Part shown: positions 31,680 to 40,827 of the stretch, in pieces
How the letters are laid out: every line of letters starts with the position of its first letter
Position numbering within the stretch: position 1 is the first letter of the stretch
DNA from: an uncultured Verrucomicrobiota bacterium
Lineage (GTDB): Bacteria; Verrucomicrobiota; Kiritimatiellia; CAIQIC01; Lenti-01
Direction of reading: 5' to 3'
DNA length: 64,000 bases
Assembly: GCA_937872095.1 (NCBI GenBank)
Contig: CALMNW010000101.1
Location: 1-64,000 of the forward strand
The notes under the pieces: model-generated
Told to the model about the DNA's origin: nothing
Seen by the model: the letters and a program-made list of their open reading frames with translations, nothing else
The model's database searches: none
Translations under genes and position numbers: made by a program

Positions 31680-31708
31680 TTGTCCCCGACCGGGCTACGG
31701 AGTATATT
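31680..31708 (+). promoter_or_regulatory. Sigma-70-like promoter of the OB-repeat/permease/hydrolase operon
   Basis: TTGTCC, a 17-base spacer and TATATT on the plus strand (4 of 6 and 5 of 6 matches). Predicted start is near 31715. The -10 overlaps a good minus-strand -10 (TATACT, 31706-31701), so the element may fire in both directions and also serve the GT4 gene. Confidence 0.6.
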
Positions 31709-31764: not shown

Positions 31765-33309
31765 ATGACGGAAAAACCGCAGGCGCTACCCGGTCACGAA
31801 ACCCAGTCGGATGAAATGAATTGCCCGAATTGCGGGCGGTTCGTCGGCGCCGTCACCAAATGTCCCTATTGCGGCTCCAAAGTCGAAAAGCGCATGAGCC
31901 TCGTGGCGATCCGCTGGGCCGCCGTCCTGCTGGCCACCGTCGGTCTCTTCCTGCTCTTCCTCATGGCGAAGCACCGCGAGATCCCCGTCGTCAAGCTCGG
32001 CGAAGTCAAGGCGACTATGAATTTCGCGCAAATCCGCGTGGACGGCGTCGCCGAGAGCGATGCGCGGACTTTCCGCTCGGGTGGCGGCATGGGCTTCAAC
32101 TTCTCCGACGGCACCGGCACCATCATGGTGTTCATCAGCCAAAAGCAAGCCCAGGAGATGCAAGAGAAGAATCTCGTGCCCAAGGCCGGCGACAAAGTCA
32201 ATTTCGCGGGCGGCCTCAACATCTCCGACGACAAGTCTTCGATGCGGCTGCTGAGCGTGGACGAATTCCACTTGACCCGCGCGCCCGCCGCCACCATGCG
32301 GCTGGCGGACATCACGACGGATATGAAAGGCTCCTCCGTCACGATCGAAGGCAAGGTGATGGACCTGTTCCCGCCCCCGGCGGATTCCAAACGCCCTTAT
32401 GCGTTGAAACTTCAGGACGCTTCCGGCGAACAGACGATCAATTTCTGGCAGACGGAATACGACCAGATCGCCAACAAGGACGTGCTGGTCGGCGCCTATG
32501 TCCGCGCGCGCGTCTCGGTGGCCTCCTATCAGGACAAGTTGCAGCTCAAATTGGCTTCCGGCCTGGATTTGGAAATCCTCGACGGCCCGCCCGCCGCGGA
32601 CGCCTACGCCACGCCCGCCCAAAAGGCCGCCGCGACCTACCGGAAGCAGGCCGCGCCGGCGCCGCGCGATTTCTCCCGCGGCCGGTCGGTTGCTTCCACC
32701 AGCCTGTCCGTTTCCGCCGTCACGCCCGCGCTGAAAGGCCAGACCGTGCGGGTGCGCGGCCGCGTGGATTCGGTCCGCCCGCCGCGGGAGGGTACCAAAC
32801 AGCCCTTCGCAGTCGTCTTGCGGGACGGCGACGCCACCCTGCGCGCGACCTATTGGTCCAACGCCGATGCCGTCATCCCCGTCAAGCCCACCCCCGGCGC
32901 GCTCTTCGAGATGGAAGGCGTGGTCGAAGTCTACAAAGACCAACCGCAGCTCCAGGTCGAAAGCGGCTACAAGGTGAAACTGGTAGACGATACGCCGGCC
33001 TCGGCCCCCGCGGTGGACATGTCCAAAGCCGTCCCCGTTGCCTCCATCACGGCCGCCGAAATCGGCCAGACCCGCGTGGTGAAAGGCGTCCTCGGCGCCC
33101 CCCGCGCCCTGCGCGGCGGCGTCGCCTATGCGCTGACCGACGACACCGGCACGATCGATCTGATTCTCTGGGAGTCCATCGTTCCCGCCGAGGTGCTCAA
33201 CGCCCTCGGCGAGGGCGCGAGCGTCGCCGCGACCGGAGACGTCGGCGAATACGAAGGCAAACTGCAGATCAAGGCGGCGGCCGGCTATTCCGCCATGGTG
33301 ATTCCGTAA
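31765..33309 (+). CDS. Membrane-anchored zinc-ribbon protein with four OB-like repeats
   Basis: 514 residues. A zinc ribbon (CPNC 20-23, CPYC 33-36) is followed by one transmembrane helix (about 45-68). Then come four repeats of about 90 residues, near 77-172, 180-273, 312-405 and 420-514. Each has the OB-fold pattern: a beta strand with VxGxV, a FxxxDxTG-like strand, a hydrophobic 'isxFW' strand, then VxxxGxVxxYxxxLQL. Examples are TVRVRGRVDSV and QLQVESGYKV. Such OB domains usually bind nucleic acid or act as protein modules; which applies here is not shown. An ideal GAGGAG Shine-Dalgarno precedes the ATG. It leads a tight operon with a permease and a membrane hydrolase (19-base gaps). Function is unknown. 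Confidence 0.8.
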   Translation: MTEKPQALPGHETQSDEMNCPNCGRFVGAVTKCPYCGSKVEKRMSLVAIRWAAVLLATVGLFLLFLMAKHREIPVVKLGEVKATMNFAQIRVDGVAESDARTFRSGGGMGFNFSDGTGTIMVFISQKQAQEMQEKNLVPKAGDKVNFAGGLNISDDKSSMRLLSVDEFHLTRAPAATMRLADITTDMKGSSVTIEGKVMDLFPPPADSKRPYALKLQDASGEQTINFWQTEYDQIANKDVLVGAYVRARVSVASYQDKLQLKLASGLDLEILDGPPAADAYATPAQKAAATYRKQAAPAPRDFSRGRSVASTSLSVSAVTPALKGQTVRVRGRVDSVRPPREGTKQPFAVVLRDGDATLRATYWSNADAVIPVKPTPGALFEMEGVVEVYKDQPQLQVESGYKVKLVDDTPASAPAVDMSKAVPVASITAAEIGQTRVVKGVLGAPRALRGGVAYALTDDTGTIDLILWESIVPAEVLNALGEGASVAATGDVGEYEGKLQIKAAAGYSAMVIP

Positions 33310-33328
33310 CCTGGAGGGAGGCGCCCCC

Positions 33329-34663
33329 ATGTCCGCATTTTGGCTCGTTCTGATATCGGTAACCGCCGGCACGCTGATCTCGAGCGTACTGGCCTGCCTG
33401 CCCGGCCTGCACATCTACAACGTGATGGGCGCGCTGGTGCTGGGCATCCTCGCGCTCGAGGGCACGGCCCATCCCATTCCGCCGGACGTCTATCTGCCCG
33501 CTTTCACCGGCATGATCGTCGGCTGGTCGATGCTCAACACGATTCCAGCCGTGTTGCTCGGCACGCCGGACGAATCGGCCATGTTCACGGTGCTGCCCGG
33601 CCAGAAATACCTGATGGCCGGCCGCGGCTTCGAAGGCACGATGATCACGGCCGTCGGCGGCCTCGCCGGCGCGTTCTTCCTCGTGTGCGTGATGGCGCCG
33701 CTGGCGCCGCGCTACTTGCCCGTTTCGCAGCAGGTGCTCAAAGGGCACATGCACTGGGTCCTATGGGTCATCATCACCTTCATGCTCATGTCCGAATGGC
33801 CCAAGGGCGGCAACCGCGGTCCCGCCGGCTGGGCCAAGTTCTACGACGCGTGGAAGACGCTGCTCGCCGGCCTCGCCACCTTCGTCCTCGCCGGTTTGCT
33901 CGGTTTCATCCTCCTCACCCGCTCGCCGGTGAACCACGAGGTCGCCTTCCAGAACATCATGCCCGCCTTCGTGGGGCTGTTCGCGATCCCCTGGTGCCTG
34001 CTGAACATGATTTCGGCGGCCGACGTCCCGCCGCAGCGCAGCGCCAAGAGCCTCGCCATCAACGGCGACGTCATCTTGCGTTCGGTCTGGTCCGGCGGCC
34101 TCGGCGGCGGCATCGCGGCCTACTTCCCGGTCGTCACCGGCGGCGTCGGCGGCATGCTGGCCGGCCACGCCACGGCCCAGCGCGACGAGCGCATCTTCAT
34201 CATGGGCCAGGGCGTCTCGAAATTCATCTACTACGTCGGCGCCTTCATGCTGATGTTCGTGCCCGGGCTGAACCTGACCCGCGGCGGCGGCGCCTGGATG
34301 GTCAAGGCCCTCTACACGCCCATGGGCGCGGCCGACTACTACCTCGTCCTCGGCAGCATCGCCGTGGCCGCCGGCCTCTCCTACCTGATGATGGAACCCC
34401 TCACCAAGTTGACGCTCCGGTTCATCGACCGTTTCAACTACCGCCACGTCTCGACGGTCGCCCTGGGCATCATTCTCGCGATGGTCTACGCCGTCACCGG
34501 CTGGGTGGGCCTGTTCATCGCGGCCGTGGCCACCGGCATCGGCCTGCTGCCCGTCCTGTTTGGCTCGCGGCGCCTGAACTGCCTCGGCATCCTCTTGCTG
34601 CCCATCGCCTGCAACATGTCCGGTTTCGGCGAAACCATCACCGGCTGGCTCGGTCTCACCTGA
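33329..34663 (+). CDS. TctA/DUF112-type integral membrane permease
   Basis: 444 residues with about 10-12 membrane segments in two similar halves. The early ISSVLACLPGLHIYNVMGAL and NTIPAVLLGTPDESAMFTVLPGQ are the conserved Gly/Pro motifs of the tripartite-tricarboxylate-transporter TctA superfamily (DUF112 branch, known in archaea and some bacteria). No TctB or TctC binding protein is encoded nearby, so this is not a standard citrate-type importer. The substrate is unknown. The gene starts 19 bases after the OB-repeat gene and ends 19 bases before the hydrolase gene. Confidence 0.8.
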   Translation: MSAFWLVLISVTAGTLISSVLACLPGLHIYNVMGALVLGILALEGTAHPIPPDVYLPAFTGMIVGWSMLNTIPAVLLGTPDESAMFTVLPGQKYLMAGRGFEGTMITAVGGLAGAFFLVCVMAPLAPRYLPVSQQVLKGHMHWVLWVIITFMLMSEWPKGGNRGPAGWAKFYDAWKTLLAGLATFVLAGLLGFILLTRSPVNHEVAFQNIMPAFVGLFAIPWCLLNMISAADVPPQRSAKSLAINGDVILRSVWSGGLGGGIAAYFPVVTGGVGGMLAGHATAQRDERIFIMGQGVSKFIYYVGAFMLMFVPGLNLTRGGGAWMVKALYTPMGAADYYLVLGSIAVAAGLSYLMMEPLTKLTLRFIDRFNYRHVSTVALGIILAMVYAVTGWVGLFIAAVATGIGLLPVLFGSRRLNCLGILLLPIACNMSGFGETITGWLGLT

Positions 34664-34682
34664 TCCCGAAAGGAACGCGAAA

Positions 34683-35714
34683 ATGAAAGGTTTTTCCCAT
34701 TTCATGTCCGGCGTGGCGGTCGCCTCCTTCGGCCCCTGGGCCATCGAGGCCGCGCAAAACGGCAATCCCCTGTTCTTCGTCCTCGGCGGCGCCTGCGGCA
34801 TCCTGCCCGATACCCTCGACTTCAAGTTCTACCGCTTCTTCTACGAGCACGACGTCTACATCACGCCCGACCCGAAGAATCCCGATCCGCAGTACGTCGC
34901 CGACGAATACGCCCGCGCCGTCGCCATGGCCGTCGACGAGAAGCGCTATATCCGCGTCAAGCTCGTCTCCATCCGGCTCGGTGCCGATTTCTGGCAGCAG
35001 TACGTCGTCAAGATCGACAACGACAAGCTGGAAGTTCAGGTCCAGTTCGGCCCCGTGGTCAACACCGGCCAAGTGCCCGTGGAAGGCACGGAAAAGCGCT
35101 ATCCGACGGTCGCCCGCGCCAAGCTCAAGGCCAAGGTCATCCAGACCTACGATGCCGGCATGAAAGTCGACATCTTCGACGGCCCCACCATCGGGCTCAA
35201 GCCCATGGAAAACGGCGACCTCGACCTCGAATTCCTGCCGTGGCACCGCGAATGGTCCCACTCCCTCACCGTCGGCGCCATGCTCGGCGTGCTCGTCGGC
35301 GCGGGCGTCTGGCTGGCGTCCGGCTGGACTCCCGCTTGGCAGAGCTTCGTCACCATCGCCGCCTGCTACGGCGTGCACGTCGTCGAAGACCAGCTGGGCC
35401 ACATGGGCTCCAACATCTTCTACCCGATCACCAAGCTGCGCACCCCCGGCCTGCACTGGATGCATTCCGGCGACGGCCTGCCCAACTTCCTGACCGTGTG
35501 GATCTGCTGCCTGCTGATCTTCTGGAATCTCTACCGCGGCCAGCCCGCCATGACCTACCACTTCGGCTTCATCCATCTGATGATGGTCGGGCTCGTGGTC
35601 CCTGGCCTGGTTTTCGGAGCGCTCCGCTGGCTTCTCAATCGCGGCCAAAAGATCCAAATGGCCAAGGGCGACGACGCCGACGACGAGTGGAACGACTCCA
35701 AAGCCGCCGGATAA
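34683..35714 (+). CDS. YdjM/DUF457-type membrane-bound metal-dependent hydrolase with a soluble insert
   Basis: 343 residues. N-terminal GFSHFMSGVAVASFGPW and GGACGILPDTLDFKFYRF match the His/Asp-containing helices of the DUF457 family. HREWSHSLTVGAMLG, HVVEDQLGHMGSNIFYP and LHWMHSGD continue the metal-binding pattern. Between the first helices and HREWSH lies about 130 residues of hydrophilic sequence (about 58-190) that the compact family members of about 200 residues do not need. It has three or four further membrane helices. An AAAGGAAC Shine-Dalgarno precedes the ATG. The catalytic role is unproven even for the family. It is the last gene of the OB/permease operon. Confidence 0.75.
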   Translation: MKGFSHFMSGVAVASFGPWAIEAAQNGNPLFFVLGGACGILPDTLDFKFYRFFYEHDVYITPDPKNPDPQYVADEYARAVAMAVDEKRYIRVKLVSIRLGADFWQQYVVKIDNDKLEVQVQFGPVVNTGQVPVEGTEKRYPTVARAKLKAKVIQTYDAGMKVDIFDGPTIGLKPMENGDLDLEFLPWHREWSHSLTVGAMLGVLVGAGVWLASGWTPAWQSFVTIAACYGVHVVEDQLGHMGSNIFYPITKLRTPGLHWMHSGDGLPNFLTVWICCLLIFWNLYRGQPAMTYHFGFIHLMMVGLVVPGLVFGALRWLLNRGQKIQMAKGDDADDEWNDSKAAG

Positions 35715-36090: not shown

Positions 36091-36717
36091 TTATTGCATG
36101 TACATGCGCTCGCCGCCGGGGCCGATCATGATGGGATTCCGCTCGTCCTGCAGCTCGCAGGCGACGTTGATGTTCCGGATCCACGCCATGTTGCGAGCGC
36201 GCTGGAAGACCCGGTAGCTGTCGGGACGAACGAGGAAGCAGATAAACTGGGTGTCCGGATCGATGTTCGCCAGCCGGGATCCAAACCACATGTCCGCGGT
36301 TTCCTTCAGTTGGCTTTCGAGGGTGTAGCCCTCGGCGTCGGGAATCGGCAACAGGACGTATTTGCCCATCAGCGCGTAGGTGTAATCCAGCTTTTGCCCG
36401 TTCAGTTCCAGCATGGTCTGGGACGCTTGCTTCAGGAACTCGGACTCGTCGCCGTTGACCTTGTCCTTCAGTTCTTCGGTTTTGGCGTCGCAGACCTTTT
36501 TAAGCTCGTCGATCGAGATGTGGAAAAGCTGGTTGTGCCGGCATTCGAAAAACACGGGGCTCTTGTCGTCGCCCTGCATCTCCTTGGGCGTCGCCACCAG
36601 CACGGTGATCTGCGACGCGTCGATGCCTGTCAGCAAAATGATCAAGACCAACACGCCCAAGATGCAGGTCATGAGGTCGGTGAAGGAGCTCAAATCCATT
36701 GCGGGGCCGGATGCCAT
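36091..36717 (-). CDS. ExbD/TolR-like protein, aspartate-containing
   Basis: 208 residues with a short cytoplasmic N-terminus, one helix (about 15-31) and a periplasmic domain. SSFTDLMTCILGVLVLIILL aligns with the ExbD/TolR helix TPLIDVMLVLLIIF, putting D14 at the proton-carrying Asp. The periplasmic part is longer than in ExbD, about 175 residues with coiled-coil character around EELKDKVNGDESEFLKQA. It lacks a recognisable TolR C-terminal domain. It is four bases downstream of a second ExbD-like gene in the channel module, and an in-frame ATG at 36699 is an alternative start. With the MotA/TolQ protein it would form an energised membrane complex. Confidence 0.7.
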   Translation of the reverse strand: MASGPAMDLSSFTDLMTCILGVLVLIILLTGIDASQITVLVATPKEMQGDDKSPVFFECRHNQLFHISIDELKKVCDAKTEELKDKVNGDESEFLKQASQTMLELNGQKLDYTYALMGKYVLLPIPDAEGYTLESQLKETADMWFGSRLANIDPDTQFICFLVRPDSYRVFQRARNMAWIRNINVACELQDERNPIMIGPGGERMYMQ

Positions 36718-36720
36718 GGC

Positions 36721-37302
36721 TCAGTTCCCTTCTCCGGAGACGGGTTCGGCGGCTTCCGCCGTTTCGGCGGCTTCCGCGGGAGGGGCGCCGGCGGGTTCCG
36801 CCGCCGGCGGCGTTTCGGGCGCGCCGAGCACCTTGATTTCCCGGCCGAGGTCCCAAGGTTCGAACCCCACGTCGATGCCGCGATCCCGGATCACCTGGCG
36901 CAGCTTGCGCTGGAAGGTAGCGCTGCCGGGCCGCAGCAGCAGGACGATGTAGCGCACGGACTTCACTCGCTCCACGTCGTCCAGGAACTGCTCGAAGTCG
37001 TTTCCTTCGAACACCAGATCCCGCGCTTCGATCACCTTCTTCTCCGGATGGATGATCAGGCGGGTCGGTTCCACGTCCACGTAGATGGGATCCTGCTTCA
37101 TGTTCTGGAATTTGGGCGGAATGAACGCGTCTTCTTCCTCGTCCTCGCCGTAGACGGAACCCGTCACCAGCGCGCCGATCTTGATGTTTTCCGGATTGCT
37201 GATGATGGTCAGCACGTTGCTGACCAGCATCATCATCAACACGCCGATCAGCATCAGCACGATGTTCTGGAACCCGGACGAATCGAATTCGGCCATTTTC
37301 AC
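36721..37302 (-). CDS. ExbD/TolR-like protein with Asn replacing the key Asp
   Basis: 193 residues with one N-terminal helix (about 12-33) and a periplasmic domain ending in an Ala/Glu/Pro-rich tail. GFQNIVLMLIGVLMMMLV aligns with the ExbD helix, but the expected Asp is N13. The folded region includes YVDVEPTRLIIHPEKKVIEA and SVRYIVLLLRPGSATFQRKLRQVIRDRGIDVGFEP. The last is the strand-helix pattern of ExbD C-terminal domains (VxxxAxP...), here as LLLRPGS. The start is GTG at 37302, giving a GTGA overlap with the propeller gene; an ATG at 37296 is possible. It is probably a subunit of the same complex as the Asp-containing paralogue. Confidence 0.68.
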   Translation of the reverse strand: MKMAEFDSSGFQNIVLMLIGVLMMMLVSNVLTIISNPENIKIGALVTGSVYGEDEEEDAFIPPKFQNMKQDPIYVDVEPTRLIIHPEKKVIEARDLVFEGNDFEQFLDDVERVKSVRYIVLLLRPGSATFQRKLRQVIRDRGIDVGFEPWDLGREIKVLGAPETPPAAEPAGAPPAEAAETAEAAEPVSGEGN

Positions 37303-39284
37303 GGCGTCGATCCTTCCGCTGCCGCCGGCGCTTCGGCGGCCGGCGCTTCAGGCGTCGGCTCCCCGTCCGCGGGCGCGCCGGCCGGGGCGAAGCCTTCGAT
37401 GTCCTTGGACGCATCCAAGCTCATCTCCACGCGCTTCTTCTCGACGATTTCCTTCAGGCCGGTCTGGCCGGCGGACAGCTTCGAGGCCGTCGCGTCATCG
37501 CCGAAAGCGATCGTCATGCTCGCCGGGAACTGGCCCAGCTTGAGCCAGCCGACGGAGCGGTTGGCGCCGCCCCCGGCGCCGCCAAAACCGGAAATCAGCA
37601 GGTTGCTGAATTGCTCCTTCGTGATCTTCTCGCCATCCATGCCTTCGATGGTGGCATCTTCCATGAAAGACGCGTCGTAGGTGACGCTGCCGCTTTCCGT
37701 CCCCGTCGACTTGACCACCAGCTTGGCCTTCTGTTCGCGCGGTCCCTGGAACAAAGTGAGATAATAGTCGCCGTAGATGCCCGCCCCGAGGAAGGACAGG
37801 TTCACGTAGACGCCCCCGTCGGACTGCTCGATCCCGCAGACCACCACCGGGACGTGCAGGCCGCCGGGCGCGGAAGCGACTTTCGAGATGTTGGTGCCGG
37901 ACACGCGATACACGCCTACGTCGCCTTCGAAAATCGGCTTGGTCTGCTCGATCTTGCCGCTCTTGCGCTTGGCGGAGAAGAAACTCAGGCTGGGGCTCAC
38001 CGCCGTCTCGGTCATCACCACCTTGCTGGGGAACAACAGGAAGAATTCCACTTCTTCGATGGGATCGGCCTCCGCGCCTTCCACTTCCACGGCGGCCCGC
38101 ACCCGGCCGGCCACGATGGGCATTTTGCCGGCGATGTCGCTCAAGTTGAATTCCACCGAATGCGTCGCATCGTCCGGCAGGATTTCCTTGGCGGCATCCT
38201 GCAAGCGATCGAAGAAATTGTTCAGGAAGGCCGGCGCTTCCGACGGCATGCCCATCATGCCTTCGGCGGACCGGACGATCTGCCGCATGACCATCTCGTT
38301 GAATTTCATCGTCGGATTGGGCGTGCATTCCAGCAGGCGGCCCGCCACGGGATCCGTCACGAGATAGCGGGAATTGACCCGGTCCATGGCGATGTCGCCG
38401 ATGGATTTCAGCTCTTCCGTCAGCGTCTTCTGCTGGCCGGTAAAAGGTTCCATCCGCGTCAGGCTCGCCTTCCCGGGGGCGTTCTGCAACCCGAGGATGA
38501 AGGTGCCGTCCGGATACAGGGCCAAACTCGACAGCTCCGCGCGGCCCGCGGCTTCCGGCGCGCCCCCCAGCATCATGTGGCGGTCCACCTCCCACCACGC
38601 CAACGACCCTTTGTTGCGATCGCCCAGCAGCATCACGTCTTGCCGTTCCGAAATCGCGAACGTCCCGAAGTTGGCGAAGGGGCCGAAGTCGATCACCCAC
38701 CAGTTCCCGTCCGGTTCCCGCATCAGGGCCGAACCGAATTTCATGAAGGCCGAGCCCACTTCGTCGGCGCCGACGATGTAGAGGCGCCCGCCGGGATCGA
38801 CGAACAGGTCCCGCCACTGGAACTCCTGGTCCAGCCACGGCACCGGCACGCACTTGGCCACGGCGAACTGCCCTTGTTCGTTCGGCAGGAATTCCAGGAT
38901 GCGGCCGTTGGGTTTTTGTTCCGAAACGAAGAGGTGGCCGTTCGTGGAGATCGAAATCGGTCCGGGCTCGTGGAGCACGGCCTCCATCCAGGTTTCCATC
39001 GGCATCTGCTGGGAAATGGCCCAGCGGGGCAGAACGTCCGAAACCGTCCAATCCGGGGCCAGCGCCGATTCCGGCTTCCCGTTTTTCAGCACCAGGATCC
39101 GGCCGCTGCCCTGCTCCGACACGTAGATGTCGCCCGTGGCGGGATGAATGGCCGTGCCGAAAGGCTCCTGCAATCCGTCGGCCAGCGAACAGACCGACAA
39201 GGTCTGCCCCCGCGCCCCGGCGGCCCAGCAGAGCGTCGCCGCGCAAAGCACCGGAAACAGCCGAAATCGGAAACCGTTCCGCAT
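37299..39284 (-). CDS. Secreted beta-propeller protein of the channel module
   Basis: 661 residues. A cleavable signal peptide (about 1-26, ending AAGARGQ) leads into NHL/SMP-30-like repeats. Examples are PFGTAIHPATGDIYVSEQGSGRILVL, GPISISTNGHLFVSEQKPNGRILEF and LFVDPGGRLYIVGADE. The pattern runs to about residue 330. The second half (about 340-600) has no clear family: a mostly beta region with VEVEGAEADPIEEVEFFLLFPSK and STGTESGSVTYD. The C-terminus is an Ala/Pro/Glu-rich tail like that of the next protein. It lies between the MotA/TolQ gene (24 bases) and the two ExbD-like genes, so it is probably a periplasmic part of the same machine. Confidence 0.72.
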   Translation of the reverse strand: MRNGFRFRLFPVLCAATLCWAAGARGQTLSVCSLADGLQEPFGTAIHPATGDIYVSEQGSGRILVLKNGKPESALAPDWTVSDVLPRWAISQQMPMETWMEAVLHEPGPISISTNGHLFVSEQKPNGRILEFLPNEQGQFAVAKCVPVPWLDQEFQWRDLFVDPGGRLYIVGADEVGSAFMKFGSALMREPDGNWWVIDFGPFANFGTFAISERQDVMLLGDRNKGSLAWWEVDRHMMLGGAPEAAGRAELSSLALYPDGTFILGLQNAPGKASLTRMEPFTGQQKTLTEELKSIGDIAMDRVNSRYLVTDPVAGRLLECTPNPTMKFNEMVMRQIVRSAEGMMGMPSEAPAFLNNFFDRLQDAAKEILPDDATHSVEFNLSDIAGKMPIVAGRVRAAVEVEGAEADPIEEVEFFLLFPSKVVMTETAVSPSLSFFSAKRKSGKIEQTKPIFEGDVGVYRVSGTNISKVASAPGGLHVPVVVCGIEQSDGGVYVNLSFLGAGIYGDYYLTLFQGPREQKAKLVVKSTGTESGSVTYDASFMEDATIEGMDGEKITKEQFSNLLISGFGGAGGGANRSVGWLKLGQFPASMTIAFGDDATASKLSAGQTGLKEIVEKKRVEMSLDASKDIEGFAPAGAPADGEPTPEAPAAEAPAAAEGSTP

Positions 39285-39308
39285 GGCCGAGGTCCCCGCT
39301 CGCCTCCG

Positions 39309-40742
39309 CTAGGAAACGACTTCCTCGTGCAGGGTAATCACCCGCGGCTTGCTCAAGCGGCGGCAGAATTCGTCGGTGGTCGCGAGATGTTCGCGCAGCT
39401 GCGCGAACGATTTCTGGAATTCCTCGGAGCCGGCGATGCCCGCCATGGCGCGTTCCAAGGCCTGTTCCACCTTCAGCAGTTCCTGGATCTTCGCGCCCAG
39501 GTCCATGATGGTGGCGATCTGGCTTTCCACGACGCCGGCGGCGTTGGCCGCCTTCTGCAGGCTTTCGCCCAGCGTCGCCTGGATGCTGTCGGCGCTGCGC
39601 GCGTAGCGGTCGGCCATGTCCGCCGCCCGCGCGTGCGCATGCTCCATCGCCGCGGCGAGGGCCTTGACTTCGTCGTCCGTGGCCAGTTTGCGCACGTCCA
39701 CGTACCGCTTGGTCAACTCTTCGAACTGCGTCTTCAGTTCGTCGCCGGCTTTTTCGATCGACACCGTGAACACTTCCTCGTAGCGGTCCGGATCGGGAAT
39801 GTAGCGCCGGAATGCGGCCTCGATCGAATCTTCCAAGTTTTCGATCATGATCGTCTGCTGCTCGGCCGACGGCAGGCGGCGGACGAAGTGTTCATCGAGG
39901 TAGATGTCGACTTCGGCCATGAACGCCCCTTCGCGGCGCATGACCGACGTCAGCGGGAACTGCACCATGGTCACCAGCATCAGCGCCAGGAACGTCGTGT
40001 CGAACGCGACGCCCAGGCTGATCGTCACCTGCGCGATGGCGCCTTTGATGGCCGACAGTTCCGCCGAGCCCGACAGGAAGTCGGCGAACCCGCCTACGGC
40101 CGCGCCCAGACCTTGCACCGTTCCGATGAACCCCAGAATCGGAATCACCCACAACATCAGGCGCGCGATCGTGAAGGTCATGTCCGACATGGCGCCGTCG
40201 CGCGTGGCTTCTTGGGTAATCCAGCCGCCCACGCGGCCGAGATCCTTCGTGACGACCCACAGCCCCAGGGCCCGATCCAGACGGCTCAGCAGGATGCTCT
40301 TCTTGTTGCCGCCGGTTTCCTGGATGCGCCGGCGGAGGCCTTGAAGGTCCTCTTCGCTTTCCATGTTGACGCCGGAAAGCTGCGCCGTGTCGTCCTCGAT
40401 GTGCTGGATTTGGCGCTTGAGGATCTTGTTCTTCTGGAAAATGAAGAACACGATGACGAAAAAGCTGAGCAGCTCGAGCCATTGAATGGGCCCGCGTTGG
40501 TTGACCAGGCCGTTGACGTACTTCAGGATCGCGATATCTTGGGTTTTGTTCAGGAAATGGAGGGCCGAACACACGATGATGGTGCAAATCGCCGACCCGA
40601 TGACCTGAACCCAGACGTTCGCATCGGTGGTCGGGCGCGAACTCGTCCAGCCTTCCCCTTCGTCGATGATATCCACCACAGGGGCGGCGCCGGGCGCGGG
40701 GTCGGGTTGCTTGTTCTGTTCTTCCACTTTTTCCTTGGCCAT
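39309..40742 (-). CDS. MotA/TolQ/ExbB-type proton channel subunit with a long coiled-coil tail
   Basis: 477 residues with four membrane segments near 43-63, 88-104, 192-212 and 240-263. PILGFIGTVQGLGAAVGGF and ISLGVAFDTTFLALMLV are the conserved MotA/TolQ/ExbB signatures. Two features differ from ExbB: an N-terminal Pro/Glu-rich cytoplasmic extension, and a cytoplasmic tail of about 200 residues (270-477) that is strongly heptad-like. The start is MAKEKVEEQNKQ; an ATG 39 bases upstream lacks support. It leads the module with the propeller and two ExbD-like proteins and presumably couples ion flow to periplasmic work. Zorya ZorA also has a long tail, but no ZorB-like peptidoglycan-binding partner is present. 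Confidence 0.85.
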   Translation of the reverse strand: MAKEKVEEQNKQPDPAPGAAPVVDIIDEGEGWTSSRPTTDANVWVQVIGSAICTIIVCSALHFLNKTQDIAILKYVNGLVNQRGPIQWLELLSFFVIVFFIFQKNKILKRQIQHIEDDTAQLSGVNMESEEDLQGLRRRIQETGGNKKSILLSRLDRALGLWVVTKDLGRVGGWITQEATRDGAMSDMTFTIARLMLWVIPILGFIGTVQGLGAAVGGFADFLSGSAELSAIKGAIAQVTISLGVAFDTTFLALMLVTMVQFPLTSVMRREGAFMAEVDIYLDEHFVRRLPSAEQQTIMIENLEDSIEAAFRRYIPDPDRYEEVFTVSIEKAGDELKTQFEELTKRYVDVRKLATDDEVKALAAAMEHAHARAADMADRYARSADSIQATLGESLQKAANAAGVVESQIATIMDLGAKIQELLKVEQALERAMAGIAGSEEFQKSFAQLREHLATTDEFCRRLSKPRVITLHEEVVS

Positions 40743-40827
40743 ATCCTGCACCTGTCCTTGATGTTGAATCCAAAGCCGCATCTACGAACTGCAACTTGGT
40801 TTACTCTCTCAAAACCGCCGGAAGCCG

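Follow-up and report, generated by a model that had tools for sequence, protein, structure and literature searches.

For the passage of DNA across the archaeal membrane without ComEC we found one candidate, an OB/TctA-like pair that came out of one transposon screen. In Methanococcus maripaludis, MMJJ_13020, a protein with an OB fold and one helix, and MMJJ_13030, a TctA-like permease, are each essential for natural transformation, as shown by the transposon screen, by clean deletions that abolish transformation and by complementation (PMC10133366). In M. thermophilus a homologue of the permease is also needed for transformation, and the archaeal phenotype was scored using plasmids (PMC10133366). 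Given that archaea have no identifiable ComEC, MMJJ_13030 was put forward in that work as the DNA transporter; archaea are likewise without clear TctB and TctC (PMC10133366). The ComEC of bacteria has a nuclease domain next to its channel, and an OB fold supplies this domain with DNA (PMC12455585). Here we describe a three-gene locus from an uncultured Verrucomicrobiota bacterium of the class Kiritimatiellia, found in a stretch of 64,000 nucleotides of contig CALMNW010000101.1 (the window). The locus encodes, on the + strand, an OB protein of 514 residues (31765-33309), an orphan TctA-like permease of 444 residues (33329-34663) and a YdjM (DUF457) membrane protein of 343 residues (34683-35714).

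Compared by description, this locus shares with MMJJ_13020/MMJJ_13030 a one-helix OB protein adjoining an orphan TctA-like permease in the same gene order, and from the published account we infer orthology of the two pairs. It differs from the archaeal pair in being bacterial, in having an OB protein that usually carries a zinc ribbon, in its third gene, which encodes YdjM with an insert, and in belonging to a host that also has ComEC. MMJJ_13020/MMJJ_13030 is the sole OB/TctA-like pair with a known role that we found in the literature searched, and the open-licence literature searched yielded no publication on a bacterial OB/TctA-like/YdjM module. Our preferred reading, held at a little under even confidence, is that the three proteins form a module for binding nucleic acid, in all likelihood DNA, and moving it at the cytoplasmic membrane, a bacterial counterpart of the archaeal transformation pair.

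A recurring three-gene unit

The trio is a conserved, recurring unit across Kiritimatiellia. In a sample of 195 genomes of the phylum, 64 of them from the class, TctA and YdjM occur in the identical 28 genomes, all within the one class. The hypergeometric probability of drawing the identical 28 among the 64 class genomes is 9e-19, a significance that shared ancestry inflates. The two genes are adjacent in 20 of the 28 genomes, and some of the exceptions are contig breaks. In several genomes TctA and YdjM lie well inside separate contigs and both have been retained, which points to a joint function beyond neighbourhood. In one genome (G065), the matches to both are reduced to fragments. The OB gene is found in 31 genomes; 27 of these also have TctA, and in 24 of them the two genes adjoin. 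Within the window the OB-TctA and TctA-YdjM gaps are exactly 19 bases each; elsewhere spacing is similarly tight, at -4 to 25 bases between OB and TctA in 40 of 41 loci and at -19 to 46 bases between TctA and YdjM across 36 loci, counts that include some duplicate loci of a single genome. The preliminary description of this DNA had correctly reported three membrane-protein reading frames with 19-base gaps between 31765 and 35714, and had left room for the trio to be an oddity of one genome. The genes sit side by side in many genomes, and the trio recurs across the class.

Related arrangements were also observed. Three genomes (G056, G095 and G163) carry a diverged second cluster, with roughly 33% identity to the main cluster, which consists of OB/zinc-ribbon proteins, TctA2 and YdjM2 with a longer YdjM insert (G163 C71, G056 C11, G095 C2). 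There are two OB/zinc-ribbon proteins in the clusters of G163 (L150) and G095 (L160), and one OB protein of the second cluster weakly matches DUF4131. A genome of the window's genus has an open OB gene minus the zinc ribbon and the first OB fold (L161:5964-7199), with no TctA or YdjM adjacent and with the diverged second cluster elsewhere in that genome. Another contig (G178 C28, L152) bears two divergently oriented modules; the first has the order YdjM-TctA-OB, and the second, encoded on the opposite strand, has OB fragment-TctA-YdjM. In further lineages, at five loci (L131, L133, L145, L162 and L165), OB or TctA is directly preceded by membrane genes of the CNNM/CBS (CorC/HlyC) type, one or two in number. 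No relatives were found among viral contigs in scans with TctA, YdjM, cyanobacterial TctA and mixed alignments, nor were any found among phage records.

Permease, OB protein and YdjM

The window permease belongs to PF01970 (TctA), which it matches across the full model at 110.7 bits against a cut-off of 28.9, and it is 67-95% identical to permeases of named Kiritimatiellia records. It departs from the TctABC transporter in its missing TctC, its clade, its motif and its partners. TctC (PF03401) is present in none of the 64 class genomes, with positive controls; TctB is not adjacent to the permease gene, and no genome-wide search for it was made, so that the claim in the preliminary description that TctB/C partners are absent holds across the class for TctC and at the locus for TctB. 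In the control panels, M. jannaschii and Methanosarcina acetivorans match PF01970 and not PF03401, and therefore TctA is an orphan in these methanogens too. A tree separates 20 Kiritimatiellia and 2 cyanobacterial permeases from 9 canonical TctABC permeases with 100/100 support. The tree tool warned of possible attraction between the long cyanobacterial branches and the long canonical ones, an artefact that would oppose the grouping found. A P-x-[LIVF]-H motif close to the start of the permease has its histidine in 22 of 22 OB-linked permeases and in none of the 9 canonical TctA proteins; in the window the motif is the PGLH of residues 25-28 (33401-33412). Helix counts by hydropathy do not discriminate, with 11-13 in the OB-linked permeases and 10-15 in canonical TctA. 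Judged by sequence, the permease is an orphan and no citrate-type TctA or standard tricarboxylate transporter, because the class has no TctC and the protein has a separate clade and a different motif. The earlier remark that the combination is no standard transporter is borne out for the permease on the same grounds.

The OB protein combines the zinc ribbon, helix and four OB-like repeats that had been proposed for it, and its predicted structure does contain OB folds. PF01336 (OB) matches four stretches of the protein at 84 bits (cut-off 27), and the AlphaFold model (pLDDT 87.7) contains one helix and four OB barrels. A Cys4 zinc ribbon (C20, C23, C33 and C36; 31822-31872), present in most homologues, is visible by sequence, and its Pfam matches are weak and all under their cut-offs. 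It is followed by the single transmembrane helix at residues 44-69 (31894-31971; hydropathy peak 2.28) and by the OB folds at residues ~86-165, 188-272, 324-408 and 434-512 (32020-33300). The OB array is probably outside the cytoplasm. Its leading Foldseek matches are p204 HIN with double-stranded DNA, Teb1, replication protein A (RPA) with single-stranded DNA, LEF-3 and POT1, and the family profile matches archaeal RPA at E 9e-6 and, more weakly, TiaS and YhaM. By predicted structure and profile, the repeats thus resemble DNA-binding OB arrays, a resemblance that is no proof of binding. DUF4131, the OB domain of ComEC, is weakly matched by 9 of 31 OB homologues, with a best E of 3e-4; the one match displayed in full is below cut-off.

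The YdjM/DUF457 family is widespread. The window protein matches PF04307 at 47.3 bits against a cut-off of 29, and 23 of 23 homologues match the family at E<=0.01. The protein is membrane-embedded, held there, as we propose, by helices around a conserved His/Asp set: H188, R189, H193, H232 and D236 (35244-35390), residues of a putative metal site, are invariant in 23 sequences, as are H6, D43 and D46 near the start of the protein. Like E. coli YdjM, it has an above-cut-off PF04307 match and the conserved set; it differs in a strand-rich insert of ~130 residues (54-184; 34842-35234) and in its coupling to TctA. This insert, noticed in the preliminary description, is confirmed by the AlphaFold model (pLDDT 84.9) and is shared by most of the 23 homologues. 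The label of DUF457 hydrolase given there fares less evenly: the family assignment stands, whereas for hydrolase status there is the conserved His/Asp set and no solved structural relative at Foldseek E<=0.001 or by profile search. We therefore use 'hydrolase' as an annotation rather than a result, and the metal site is putative, as read from the alignment. A phospholipase C/P1 nuclease fold, considered for this family, gave no match in either search and is not used here.

An OB and TctA-like pair is also present in a second bacterial phylum. Searched against 72,556 plasmids, the window permease finds only 2 records at E<1e-5, both cyanobacterial (NZ_CP060823 and NZ_CP112877), whereas a canonical TctA query finds 812 plasmid records. 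Both cyanobacterial plasmids encode, immediately upstream of the permease, a short OB protein that has two OB folds and a single helix at its N-terminus, one of the two OB genes being annotated as hypothetical. Profile comparison between Kiritimatiellia and Cyanobacteria gives E 7e-25 for the permeases and E 1.9e-5 (probability 78%) for the OB proteins. The plasmid pairs share with the window a one-helix OB protein upstream of a TctA-like permease, here with a PGIH motif, and differ in having no zinc ribbon and no YdjM neighbour. On the Cylindrospermopsis plasmid (L167:5610-7370), the pair is followed by a gene with a NERD nuclease-related domain and preceded by a kinase-GUN4 fusion. PADLOC models match neither the window trio nor the Cylindrospermopsis pair, and membership of an anti-phage defence system was rejected on that basis.

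Proposed nucleic acid handling and its alternatives

Nucleic acid handling at the membrane is the best-supported idea for the trio, since DNA uptake in the archaeon requires the equivalent pair (PMC10133366). The preliminary description had guessed at nucleic acid or nucleotides, and the archaeal phenotype (PMC10133366) and the DNA-binding-like OB arrays have made this the leading idea, although the function itself is something that we infer. In a module of this kind, the OB protein would be anchored by its one helix, with the zinc ribbon inside and the OB array outside, and would capture single-stranded DNA. The TctA-like permease, to judge from the archaeal genetics, would form the passage or part of the passage. 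More speculatively, YdjM might process either the substrate itself or, next to the passage, a lipid or phosphate ester. By analogy only, the trio could be a split analogue of ComEC, a channel with an OB fold and a beta-lactamase-like nuclease (PMC12455585), with the same logic of OB fold, channel and metal site spread over three proteins. In Pfam searches none of the window trio matches PF03772 or the beta-lactamase-like nuclease. A broader proposal, which we consider possible and rather doubtful, is that at least two bacterial phyla carry a second kind of DNA-translocating membrane apparatus, which archaea would have as well and which would have no relationship to ComEC. Its parts would be an OB-array receptor for DNA and a channel of TctA fold, with YdjM as a metal-site enzyme in Kiritimatiellia.

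Several observations weigh against a role in moving DNA. Of the 195 phylum genomes, 190 encode ComEC (PF03772), as do 27 of 28 module carriers, and the window genome has it separately from the trio; because ComEC is nearly universal, bacterial DNA import does not need the module. The OB domains of the window protein have a near neutral to slightly acidic net charge and are not basic, so that net charge, tried as a sign of DNA binding, gave no support. OB folds are also able to bind sugars, lipids or proteins. In addition, no competence experiments in Kiritimatiellia were found in the open-licence literature. Finally, in two families (f5 and f9) the OB gene stands directly behind same-strand MlaE-MlaF-MlaD genes, and in f9 two genomes, G035 and G087, keep OB there without TctA or YdjM. 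This linkage, seen in G029, G032, G081 and G130 of f5 and in G160, G035 and G087 of f9, keeps a lipid or general envelope role alive.

Separately, the idea that the module replaces ComEC was rejected on the near universality of ComEC in the phylum. Only two class genomes are without a PF03772 match, one with TctA-like fragments (G139) and one with only an OB gene (G118). Type IV pilus/secretion ATPases and DprA, which count in favour of DNA handling, are encoded in the window genome.

Among the alternatives, the trafficking of envelope lipid or isoprenoid phosphate survives best, and we regard it as unlikely. The OB protein would work with Mla (MCE), the permease would move a lipid-linked substrate and YdjM would be a membrane phosphoesterase. 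The position of OB behind MlaE, MlaF and MlaD in f5 and f9, the LolC/E-like gene in f9 and the membrane-embedded character of YdjM all fit such a role. However, most lineages, including that of the window, have no Mla linkage, and MlaE is found in 63 of 64 class genomes, with or without the module, which it therefore does not track. None of the trio proteins is MlaE, MlaF or MlaD by Pfam; these are neighbours only in f5 and f9. The lipid explanation also has to contend with the transformation phenotype of the Methanococcus OB/TctA-like pair (PMC10133366) and with the resemblance of the OB arrays to DNA-binding proteins. At the Mla-linked loci (L135, L136, L137, L139, L140, L155 and L156), OB comes last in a run after a repeat protein (c8, no Pfam match), MlaE, MlaF and MlaD; in f9 the run also has the LolC/E-like gene, and TctA and YdjM may or may not lie behind OB.

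It is less probable still that the permease transports a carboxylate or other small solute without TctB/TctC, with OB and YdjM as regulatory or accessory proteins. A comparative study of archaeal membrane proteins holds that TctA may act alone (PMC5898192), and the 110.7-bit match of the window permease runs over the full PF01970 model. Against this stand the missing TctC in the class, a clade far from canonical TctA and a different conserved motif, and solute transport would leave unexplained the persistent one-helix OB partner in two bacterial phyla and Methanococcus. The least probable alternative is a module for scavenging or exporting nucleotides, oligonucleotides or signalling nucleotides, and not DNA for transformation, in which YdjM would trim the substrate. 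It would suit OB folds beside a small-molecule-sized permease and a His/Asp site and would leave DNA import to the ComEC that nearly all carriers keep. Against it, plasmids were used to score the archaeal phenotype (PMC10133366), and the solved structures include no recognised nuclease relative of YdjM.

Local context and wider meaning

Upstream of the OB gene, the + strand has one sigma-70-like promoter match (TTGTCC-17-TATATT, 31680-31708). The preliminary description had called this one good promoter; there is one match, but it is weak, agreeing at 9 of 12 positions where 0.5 such matches are expected in shuffles. Purine-rich, ribosome-binding-like stretches precede the start codons of the OB, TctA and YdjM reading frames, and an Rfam search of the window gave zero matches. 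Beyond the trio, positions 36091-40781 on the - strand hold four genes (208, 193, 661 and 490 residues) with no Pfam match at 1e-3; by eye, two appear ExbD-type-like and one MotA/ExbB-type-like, beside a secreted propeller-like protein.

Our comparison places pairs of archaeal-like anatomy in two bacterial phyla and distinguishes the permeases of these pairs from citrate-type TctA through their clade and an invariant histidine. It also adds a co-inherited third component, YdjM, and supplies testable residues and partners across the OB, TctA-like and YdjM proteins. These observations suggest that some annotations of 'tripartite tricarboxylate transporter permease' in the absence of TctC are wrong, and that bacteria may have in this module a channel for handling DNA that has drawn little notice.

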